Source of the DNA: Lachnospiraceae bacterium
Lineage (GTDB): Bacteria; Bacillota; Clostridia; Lachnospirales; Lachnospiraceae
Reading direction: 5' to 3'
Assembly (NCBI GenBank): GCA_024697065.1
Contig: JAILGE010000032.1
Location: 1-64,000, forward strand
Length of the DNA: 64,000 nt
The notes under the pieces were generated by a model. It had not been told where the DNA came from. It saw only the letters and a list, made by a program, of their open reading frames with translations, and did not search any database. How positions within the stretch are numbered: the first letter of the stretch is position 1; each line of letters starts with the position of its first letter. Position numbers and translations under genes: made by a program. This document shows, in pieces, positions 57,280 to 59,923 of this stretch.

Positions 57280-57540
57280 ATGGACAGCATCGAATTCAGA
57301 TATGACACACAGCTTCTCATTGACGGAGATGACCTTGATGAGGATGAAGTAAATGATTATATCACCAGTCATTTTAAGGGGGACTGCCTCCTTGCTGTAG
57401 GCGGAGATGGAGATCCCATCAAGATCCACTTCCATACTAACGAGCCCTGGCTTGTGCTCGAGTATTGCAGAAGCCTCGGAGAGATCTACGACATAGTTGT
57501 TGAGGACATGGACAGACAGGCGAGAGGACTTAAAGGCTGA
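57280..57540 (+). CDS. Stand-alone FakA C-terminal/DegV-like domain protein
   Basis: FRYDTQLLIDGDDLDEDEVNDYITSHFKGDCLLAVGGDGDPIKIHFHTNEPWLVLEYCRSLGEIYDIVVEDMDRQ resembles the FakA C-terminal segment (Y.TEF......GDS.VVVGD.D.IKVHVHTN.P..VL.YA...GEL..I.I.NM..Q). Confidence 0.65.
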   Translation: MDSIEFRYDTQLLIDGDDLDEDEVNDYITSHFKGDCLLAVGGDGDPIKIHFHTNEPWLVLEYCRSLGEIYDIVVEDMDRQARGLKG

Positions 57541-57542
57541 AA

Positions 57543-58550
57543 ATGGGCATTTTAAATAAGCTTGAGAGGAAATTCGGGAAATATGCGATACCGAATCTTC
57601 CGTTGCTGATAATGATCACTTATGTCGTAGGATACGGACTGGAGCTGATAAGCAGGGATGAGATCGTTGATATCATCTCACTGAATCCTTATGCCATAGT
57701 GCACGGGCAGGTGTGGAGACTCTTCACATGGCTCTTTATCCCGCCTACCGAATTTTCATTCTTTACGGTGATAATGCTGTATTTTTATTATTCCATATCG
57801 AAGACCCTGGAATATACATGGGGAAGGTTTTATTTTAACCTTTATTTCTTCATGGGAATTATATTTACCGTGGCAGGGGCATTCGCCATGTACGGATATT
57901 CAGAACTGATTGTTCCTGATCTGGCAAGAGATGCAGATATGTTTTATACAGTGAGGTACGGTGTCGAGTGCAATGCTTTGGACGGCGGCTCATGGTATTA
58001 TGCTTACCTTGCCAGGCTGTATTCCACGTATTACGTGAATATGGCCATATTCCTGGCATTTGCGGCTACATATCCGGACACTCAGGTACTGCTGATGTTC
58101 ATCATTCCCATCAAGATGAAAGTGCTGGGTATATTTGATGCACTCTATATGATATATCTGGGCGTTGATATGAGTATGCAAGGATTTCCCATGGGACTTT
58201 TTGTAATAGGAGCCTCACTTCTTAATTTCGTGGTATTCTTCCTTATCACCAGAAAGGGGATGCACAGATCGCCCCGGATGAGGAAGACGCAAAGGGAATT
58301 TAAAAAGCAGAACAGGCAGTATGCTTCAATGCGTTCCGAACACAGGATAGCAAAACATAAGTGCGCCATCTGCGGCAGGACAAGTGAGGATTATCCGAAT
58401 CTTGAATTTCGCTTCTGTTCCAAATGCGAGGGGAATTATGAATTCTGTCAGGATCATCTTTTCACACATAAGCATTTTAAGAGAGGCGATATGAACAGAA
58501 ATGACAAAGATGTGATGGGAGGCAGTGTTCCCAACAGTGACAAGCTTTAA
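57543..58550 (+). CDS. Rhomboid-like membrane protein with C-terminal Cys/His (zinc-ribbon-like) module
   Basis: VHGQVWRLFTWLFIPP and LEYTWGRFYFNLYFF rhomboid/derlin-like segments; C-terminal CAICGRTSEDYPNLEFRFCSKCEGNYEFCQDHLFTHKHF. Confidence 0.65.
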   Translation: MGILNKLERKFGKYAIPNLPLLIMITYVVGYGLELISRDEIVDIISLNPYAIVHGQVWRLFTWLFIPPTEFSFFTVIMLYFYYSISKTLEYTWGRFYFNLYFFMGIIFTVAGAFAMYGYSELIVPDLARDADMFYTVRYGVECNALDGGSWYYAYLARLYSTYYVNMAIFLAFAATYPDTQVLLMFIIPIKMKVLGIFDALYMIYLGVDMSMQGFPMGLFVIGASLLNFVVFFLITRKGMHRSPRMRKTQREFKKQNRQYASMRSEHRIAKHKCAICGRTSEDYPNLEFRFCSKCEGNYEFCQDHLFTHKHFKRGDMNRNDKDVMGGSVPNSDKL

Positions 58551-58592
58551 TGAAAGCCGCGGAATAAACACATCTTTTCCCGGAGGAAAAAA

Positions 58593-59321
58593 ATGACGGA
58601 TCAACAGGAATTTATTGAAAAGATAAGCGAGCTTAAGGATACAGCCATCCTTCAGGGCGGACAGATCTCCGAGGCTCAGATAGAGGAGACCTTCCCTGAT
58701 CTTACACAGGATCAAAAGAACCTTCTGCTTGATTATTTCAAACAGAATAATATCGGTATCGGAGAGCCGCTCAAAGATGAGGAATACCTTGATGCGGATG
58801 AAGGAAAGATCATAAAGATGTACCTGGATGAGCTGGAAGAGCTGGAAGAAGTGGATGACTCCTTAAAGCGTGTGCTCGTAATCGGGGCATTAAACGGAGA
58901 TAATGAGGCAAAGGAACGCCTCACAAACAGTTATCTTAAGGCAGTTGTGGATGTGGCAAAGCTTTATACCGGACAGGGTGTAGAGGTAGGCGACCTCATC
59001 GGTGAAGGTAATGTGGCTTTGGCCAATGCAATGTCTCTGCTTCAGAGTATCGAGAAGCCGGAAGACTGTGATGAGATGGTAATGCGCACAGTCATGAATG
59101 CCATGGAAGAAATGATCAATGCAGAGAATGCCGAAGTGGATGTGAACCGCAAGGTGCTTAAGCTTGTCATGGAGATCATAGGCAAAGCAAAGGAGCTCTC
59201 GGAGGAACTCAGACGCAAGTGCACCGTAGAGGAGCTTGCGGAAGAGGGAGGATTCAGCCCGGAAGATATCATGGAAGCTGTCAGAGTATCCGCTAACTGC
59301 GGAGATTATATTGAGATATAA
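58593..59321 (+). CDS. Truncated sigma-70-like protein (regions 1.1, 1.2, 2.1-2.2 and 3-like; no region 4)
   Basis: IIKMYLDELEELEEVDD...ALNGDNEAKERLTNSYLKAVVDVAKLYTGQGVEVGDLIGEGNVALANAM matches sigma regions 1.2-2.2; LRRKCTVEELAEEGGFSPEDIMEAVRVSANC resembles region 3. Confidence 0.7.
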   Translation: MTDQQEFIEKISELKDTAILQGGQISEAQIEETFPDLTQDQKNLLLDYFKQNNIGIGEPLKDEEYLDADEGKIIKMYLDELEELEEVDDSLKRVLVIGALNGDNEAKERLTNSYLKAVVDVAKLYTGQGVEVGDLIGEGNVALANAMSLLQSIEKPEDCDEMVMRTVMNAMEEMINAENAEVDVNRKVLKLVMEIIGKAKELSEELRRKCTVEELAEEGGFSPEDIMEAVRVSANCGDYIEI

Positions 59322-59349: not shown

Positions 59350-59751
59350 ATGTCTAAATTGCAATTTGGTGAAAATGATTATAAATATGTGATCCAGGAA
59401 TTCTCGAAGACCATGATCGGGGCGCGTTATACTTACCGTGAGATCTTATCCGCGGAGCGCGTTCCTTTTAAGTTTCAGACTATCGTAGACAGACTGATAG
59501 TGCCCTATGCTGATATGGATATGATGCTGGGGGATCATCTCTTAAATATGACTGCGGATGATAAAAATAAGCGTATCTTCGAGAACCTGAAGGCGAAGCT
59601 CAGGATATCCATCCCGCAGGCGGACGGTTCATATACCACAAAAGATATGCCGTTAGGCGCGCTGATCGCAATAGATCCGGAAGAAAAGAAGGATTTCTTC
59701 ATCCAGGAGATGATAATCTCCAATCTTGCATTATTCGGGTTTAAGCTTTAA
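59350..59751 (+). CDS. Hypothetical protein, likely co-transcribed with the sigma-like gene
   Basis: Uninterrupted ORF 28 nt downstream, same strand; no recognised family. Confidence 0.55.
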   Translation: MSKLQFGENDYKYVIQEFSKTMIGARYTYREILSAERVPFKFQTIVDRLIVPYADMDMMLGDHLLNMTADDKNKRIFENLKAKLRISIPQADGSYTTKDMPLGALIAIDPEEKKDFFIQEMIISNLALFGFKL

Positions 59752-59795
59752 TCCTGAATGATTTAGCCAATATTTAGAAGAAGCATTTAATAAAT

Positions 59796-59899
59796 AGTAT
59801 TAAGAAATAAGATTAAGAACCAGTATTAAGAAATAAAATTAAGAACCAGTATTAAGAAATAAGATTAAGAACCAGTATTAAGAAATAAGATTAAGAACC
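59796..59899. repeat. 26-bp tandem repeat (AGTATTAAGAAATAAGATTAAGAACC), 4 copies plus a diverged fifth
   Basis: AGTATTAAG recurs at 59796, 59822, 59848 and 59874; the diverged fifth copy runs into the RBS of the next gene. Confidence 0.95.
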
Positions 59900-59923
59900 A
59901 GGATCAAGAAAGAAGGAAAGAAC

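Follow-up and report, generated by a model that had tools for sequence, protein, structure and literature searches.

A gene in the 64,000-nucleotide stretch of Lachnospiraceae DNA analyzed here (the window) codes for a protein that resembles a primary sigma factor and has no region 4, raising the question of whether its product recognizes promoters at all, or has kept the surface with which sigma factors hold RNA polymerase (RNAP) for another use. The initial annotation placed the open reading frame at 58593-59321, and we recovered the same 242-aa frame on the + strand. We refer to this sigma-like protein without region 4 as PSIG, to the membrane protein encoded upstream as RhomZn, and to the ~133-aa protein encoded downstream as DN133. 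In the window, all three genes are on the + strand, with 42 nt between the end of RhomZn and the start of PSIG, and 28 nt between the end of PSIG and the start of DN133. PSIG is strongly acidic, with a pI of 4.19 and a net charge of -32 computed from the translation, and its C-terminus lies shortly past region 3.1, leaving neither a 3.2 finger nor region 4. The features are:

57543-58550, + strand: RhomZn, 335 aa, multi-spanning, with a C-terminal zinc ribbon; first gene of the cassette
58593-59321, + strand: PSIG open reading frame, 242 aa, ATG start, GGAGG Shine-Dalgarno sequence at 58582-58586
58593-58772, + strand: region 1.1-like domain of PSIG (residues 1-60), from hhalign against the RpoD N-terminus
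58806-58898, + strand: weakly conserved remnant of region 1.2 in PSIG (residues 72-102), from alignment with RpoD
58899-59033, + strand: PSIG regions 2.1-2.2 (residues 103-147), putative RNAP beta' clamp-binding segment and the most conserved block of the family
58992-59012, + strand: PSIG clamp-contact motif DLIGEGN (residues 134-140, equivalent to E. coli 403-409)
59034-59147, + strand: acidic helix at the former regions 2.3-2.4 of PSIG (residues 148-185), without promoter-melting or -10 residues
59151-59291, + strand: PSIG regions 3.0-3.1 (residues 187-233), from Pfam Sigma70_r3 just below the cut-off and from hhalign
59350-59751, + strand: DN133, an orphan of ~133 aa; third gene of the cassette

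PSIG derives from a primary sigma factor

Searching NCBIfam with the single PSIG sequence identified RpoS (5e-12) and RpoD (1e-11) over residues ~70-234, and Bacillus subtilis SigA (7ckq_F) matches the same sequence collinearly over residues 74-233 (3e-10). When a profile of 23 PSIG homologues was used to search the PDB, Clostridioides difficile SigA (7l7b_F) matched with an E-value of 6.7e-43 over profile positions 16-246, a span that covers regions 1.1 to 3.1. Profile-profile comparison (hhalign) supports the region 1.1 similarity proposed in the initial annotation (probability 98.4%, E 6.5e-15) and aligns the remainder of the protein to RpoD regions 1.2-3.1 (99.8%, 1.6e-27); region 4 has no match by the same method (6.8%, with a short alignment to the region 3 HTH). 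On these comparisons, PSIG is a genuine derivative of a primary sigma factor (RpoD/SigA).

Pfam gives a fainter signal on the single sequence, with Sigma70_r3 at 24.4 bits (3e-5), under the gathering cut-off of 25.3, and Sigma70_r2 at 17.8, under the cut-off of 24; r1_1 is detected in only three of 21 members searched as single sequences. Because Sigma70_r2 and Sigma70_r3 are both sub-threshold on one PSIG sequence, single-sequence Pfam is not decisive, and it is the profiles that decide for sigma ancestry. The expectation that Sigma70_r2 would be found thus fails for the single sequence and is borne out with profiles, and the region-3-like helix recognized earlier by eye is supported both by hhalign and by the Sigma70_r3 score. 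The AlphaFold monomer is of low confidence (pLDDT 54, from a shallow alignment of five rows) and uninformative about docking; the sigma factors recovered by a fold search with it have E > 0.04 and TM ~0.2, and we do not count these matches as evidence.

The clamp-binding segment is conserved and the promoter contacts are lost

We aligned 93 non-redundant PSIG homologues and compared them with nine RpoDs, using E. coli sigma70 numbering transferred through the alignment. Identity to RpoD is 27% in region 1.1, 20% in 1.2, 40% in 2.1, 52% in 2.2, 10% in 2.3-2.4, and 23% in 3.0-3.1; region 2.2 has an entropy of 1.18 bits and is better kept than 2.3-2.4 in 93 of the 93 homologues (Wilcoxon p 5e-17). 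In RpoD itself, 2.3-2.4 is, together with 2.2, the most invariant segment, with 30 of 37 columns identical in all nine proteins, and its loss in PSIG is therefore specific. Regions 2.1-2.2 had been recognized from the outset as sigma-like, and prove to be the best-kept block; region 1.2, also claimed, is present in the alignment but weakly kept, with Y101 (95%) and G126 (87%) retained and the rest poorly conserved.

Contacts of sigma2.2 with the beta' coiled-coil are made by residues 403, 406, 407, and 409 (PMC8321222). The clamp-contact motif DLI[G/Q]EGN that contains them is almost invariant, with D403 kept in 98% of the homologues, L404 in 100%, E407 in 98%, and N409 in 100%. The equivalent of Q406 is G in 78% and Q in 19%; the change to G is found in the core group, and most of the divergent members keep Q.

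The residues that melt and read the -10 element, which we take to be N383, Y425, F427, S428, T429, Y430, W433, W434, Q437, T440, and R441, are replaced in the PSIG homologues, often by acids. Substitutions of Y425, F427, W433, W434, Q437, and R441 are found in all or nearly all of them; T440 is replaced by E in 85%, R441 mostly by E, and Y430 is retained in 8%. The median charge of segment 417-453 is -8 in the homologues versus +4/+5 in RpoD. This charge reversal agrees with the initial description of an acidic Met/Asn/Glu-rich helix in place of 2.3/2.4, and because its residues are patterned across the family (M168 in 76%, A170 in 77%, M171 in 91%, E172 in 84%), the replacement helix looks selected rather than decayed.

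Region 4, reported as absent from PSIG, is also missing from all 93 aligned homologues; we looked for relatives carrying it together with the promoter-binding residues, and none occurred. Among 20 further weaker matches, L206 proves to be an ordinary RpoD; the others terminate without region 4, including one (L196) that was flagged by a motif pattern, yet has a C-terminus that is not region 4. PSIG thus shares with the group 1 sigma factors RpoD and SigA the collinear regions 1.1, 2.1-2.2, and 3.0-3.1 and the DLI.EGN motif; unlike them, it is ~242 aa long, is acidic in 2.3/2.4, and has no 3.2 finger, region 4, or melting and -10 residues. The conservation pattern across the 93 sequences supports the earlier proposal that PSIG would be a core-binding regulator or sigma mimic, and not a promoter-recognizing sigma factor.

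PSIG is distributed among Lachnospiraceae and is under purifying selection

Sigma-like matches are present in 59 of the 60 genomes nearest to that of the window, and outside the window's genus these are ordinary RpoDs. Most genomes of the genus carry PSIG, with no close copy in G009, G011, G024, and G033, some of which are incomplete. A core group, defined with profile A1 at E < 1e-43, is found in 43 of 299 Lachnospiraceae genomes, with divergent short ORFs beyond it; PSIG is present in ~120 of these 299, which are almost all of different genera, by a hand count of short frames among the matches listed, a few of which may be other things. In an order-level sample outside Lachnospiraceae, the matches listed include no PSIG, only RpoD-sized frames of ~330-440 aa, and among 300 genomes of the phylum just two pass 1e-28, both Lachnospiraceae and none elsewhere, at search thresholds that could in either case miss very divergent members. 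Several divergent members (L203, L210, L211, L121, and L127) have His- or His/Cys-rich tails, metal-binding in appearance. Phage and plasmid collections contain matches of only 25-52% identity, mostly partial; those annotated as plasmid are ordinary sigma factors, and an unannotated fecal record of 7 kb aligns with 96% of PSIG at 27% identity. These collections lend no support to a phage or plasmid origin. We found no description of such a sigma-like family in the open-access literature searched.

In a tree whose root and deep order are unresolved and whose bootstrap did not converge, the nine RpoDs lie on one side of a single long, fully supported branch, compatible with one rpoD duplication followed by later losses. 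Comparison with the XPB1003 orthologue gives PSIG a dN/dS of 0.053, a rough value given a dS of 1.25 that is near saturation, and the M16 peptidase encoded downstream gives 0.036 in the same comparison; the ratio indicates that PSIG is under purifying selection.

PSIG lies in a conserved three-gene operon in the core clade

Core-clade PSIG genes are in a tight, conserved three-gene operon in the order RhomZn-PSIG-DN133. RhomZn is directly upstream on the same strand at 64 of 68 loci, with a median gap of 11.5 nt, and DN133 is directly downstream at 60 of 65, with a median gap of -4 nt such that the frames overlap; the exceptions, among those listed, are mostly spurious opposite-strand ORF calls. 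DN133 occurs in 37 of the 43 core-PSIG genomes versus 2 of 256 others (Fisher p 1.5e-38, with the core/other split set after seeing the E-values and kinship uncorrected), and in one DN133-positive genome outside the core set (G290) a divergent PSIG adjoins DN133. The divergent members are found in varied gene contexts and are not part of a RhomZn-PSIG-DN133 operon, and thus the neighbors cannot be essential partners for all members. In the other DN133-positive genome outside the core set, G185 (L111, 4122-6399), an FtsY-like gene lies between RhomZn and DN133, at the place of PSIG.

RhomZn is present in 290 of the 299 Lachnospiraceae genomes, many of them without PSIG, and so is not PSIG-specific; where PSIG is absent, RhomZn is often beside CorA-like and pyruvate-kinase-like genes, as assigned by reading their translations. 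By eye, RhomZn has a GQ.WRL.T loop and an FP...IP membrane segment, its Cys/His ribbon is invariant, and a GxSx motif is not obvious. Because Pfam recognizes no rhomboid domain in it, we infer from these elements that RhomZn is rhomboid-like. DN133 has no known relatives: it matches nothing in Pfam, NCBIfam, or the PDB, nor region 4, and the AlphaFold model of DN133 has a pLDDT of 55 from a shallow five-row alignment. We considered DN133 as a hidden region 4 and rejected this, as hhalign against RpoD regions 3.2-4 gives 0.1%. Between the window's DN133 gene (59350-59751) and its counterpart at L033 6754-7152 (XPB1003), dS is 0.26, and the neighboring genes have dS of 1.25-1.40, which suggests that DN133 has either undergone recombination or been constrained in its nucleotide sequence.

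PSIG as a candidate competitor of sigma for core RNAP

The clamp surface is kept, and the promoter contacts, region 3.2, and region 4 are lost, which together point to core binding without initiation. Our preferred reading, at even odds, is that PSIG is a sigma derivative that does not initiate, but binds core RNAP and antagonizes or competes with the true sigma factor. PSIG would have arisen by duplication of a primary sigma factor, and would dock on the beta' clamp helices through its conserved 2.1-2.2 surface, as sigma does, with the acidic region 1.1 and the acidic helix at the former 2.3/2.4 occupying the place of promoter DNA. It would be unable to start transcription, because it has no residues for opening or reading the -10 element and no region 3.2 or 4; overall, free core would be kept in a state that does not initiate, or less of the core would carry the true sigma, and RhomZn and DN133 would probably control the availability of PSIG. 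Core binding, competition with sigma, and the roles of RhomZn and DN133 are what we infer from sequence comparison, and we weighed against them that Q406 is mostly G, that region 1.2 is weak, and that divergent members lie outside the operon.

Region 1.1 of sigma70 is acidic, and occupies the DNA channel up to promoter opening. Retention of region 1.1 along with a newly acidic 2.4 helix suggests that PSIG may act on free core, by occluding its DNA path, and not on elongating polymerase. More tentatively, PSIG might be a dedicated RNAP sequestration factor that grips the clamp, fills the channel by acidic DNA mimicry, and is tethered or released by RhomZn and DN133; if true, this would be a previously undescribed switch based on sigma competition or polymerase hibernation. 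As a core-binding competitor, PSIG would be a primary sigma factor evolved into a non-initiating regulator of RNAP, across a dominant gut and rumen bacterial family. It would offer a natural separation-of-function sigma that no longer reads promoters yet retains putative core binding, and would give experimenters a direct way into global transcription control in hard-to-culture Lachnospiraceae.

We think it unlikely that the sigma fold has been re-purposed for a role away from RNAP, such as scaffolding a membrane complex that includes RhomZn. Such a role fits both the close linkage of PSIG to RhomZn in core-clade genomes and the His/Cys-rich C-terminal tails of several divergent members, but it leaves unexplained why exactly the clamp-contact residues are nearly invariant, and RhomZn is nearly universal in Lachnospiraceae, including many genomes without PSIG.

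PSIG could also be a decoy that titrates an anti-sigma factor and frees the real sigma, with no action on RNAP itself. PhyR and NepR are an established example of such sigma mimicry: PhyR is ECF-derived and receiver-fused, and it titrates NepR with both promoter and core contacts degenerate (PMC8103513). The sigma-like domain of alphaproteobacterial PhyR is, like PSIG, sigma-derived with degenerate promoter contacts; unlike PhyR, PSIG is primary-sigma-derived, has no receiver domain detected in Pfam or NCBIfam scans, and keeps its core contacts, the core-contact motif being its best-kept part. A search of the window's genome found no sporulation sigma factors, making SpoIIAB-type anti-sigmas an unlikely target, and no chromosomal anti-SigA that targets regions 1-3 is known to us from this bacterial group. 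A decoy role thus seems to us improbable.

We give little credence to a role in elongation or pausing, with PSIG on the clamp helices of transcribing RNAP in the manner of a persistent sigma2, rivaling NusG-type factors. Without regions 3.2 and 4, which block RNA exit, it could in principle persist after initiation. However, region 1.1, which in the holoenzyme sits in the downstream DNA channel, is kept in PSIG and would clash with the DNA of the elongation complex, and sigma-dependent pausing requires the -10-reading residues that PSIG has lost.

It is quite improbable that PSIG forms one half of a two-part sigma factor, in which DN133 or some other protein would contribute what PSIG lacks, following the logic of B. 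subtilis SigO-RsoA or of T4 gp55 and its co-activator gp33. Two-protein sigma factors do exist (PMC8103513, PMC2988020): RsoA starts transcription with a region-4 partner (PMC8103513), and gp55 still recognizes late promoters (PMC2988020). Both systems resemble PSIG in having a sigma2-bearing protein without region 4, gp55 being a small one with no sigma4 of its own that docks on the beta' coiled-coil, as motif conservation suggests for PSIG. DN133 co-occurs with core PSIG, its frame usually overlapping by a few bases, but it has no similarity to regions 3.2-4 and is undetected in six core-PSIG genomes; to our knowledge, gp33 itself has no recognizable sigma homology, so that a role like that of gp33 retains some probability for DN133. 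Unlike SigO-RsoA, PSIG has no region-4 partner found beside its gene, and unlike gp55, it retains regions 1.1 and 3; PSIG has lost the residues for -10 recognition and melting on which both systems depend. A functionless, decaying rpoD duplicate is highly improbable, and largely refuted by the dN/dS of 0.053 and the family-wide conservation of architecture and operon, although a few members are shortened (L032, L047) and one (L031) is interrupted by an assembly gap.

Other sigma factors and surrounding sequences

The window's genome (2.69 Mb, 99.8% complete) has five Sigma70_r2 matches, with PSIG alone under the Pfam cut-off. The other four are RpoD (438 aa, L041/L002), a 256-aa FliA-type sigma whose gene adjoins chemotaxis-like genes, and two ECF-like sigmas, the FliA-type and ECF-like labels coming from a reading of the translations; an ordinary primary sigma factor therefore coexists with PSIG. 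RpoD in the window's genus (L041 4126-5442, L053 3400-5658) has extra sequence inserted between regions 1.2 and 2.1, where E. coli sigma70 has its non-conserved region, and the G006 RpoD also has a Lys/Ala-rich N-terminal extension, for a total of 752 aa. We found no strict link between PSIG and this insertion: 5 of 20 PSIG-positive genomes and 1 of 20 PSIG-negative genomes gave matches that begin beyond the point of insertion. Several Lachnospiraceae (L187-L192, L167) have a second full-length paralogue of RpoD that includes region 4 and is 52-71% identical; among 40 genomes sampled, it is commoner in those without PSIG.

Rfam has no match in the 55-64 kb part of the window, and promoter-like sites at 55.5-60 kb are no commoner than in shuffled sequence; there are nine terminator-like sites in the same interval versus 3.3 expected. 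Between DN133 and the M16 peptidase gene, at 59787-59915, are ~4.6 tandem copies of a 26-bp unit, AGTATTAAGAAATAAGATTAAGAACC. Upstream of RhomZn, at 57280-57540, is a lone 86-aa ORF matching only the middle domain of FakA-like proteins, which differs little between species of the genus (93-95% identity), compared with 57-63% identity for PSIG across these species.
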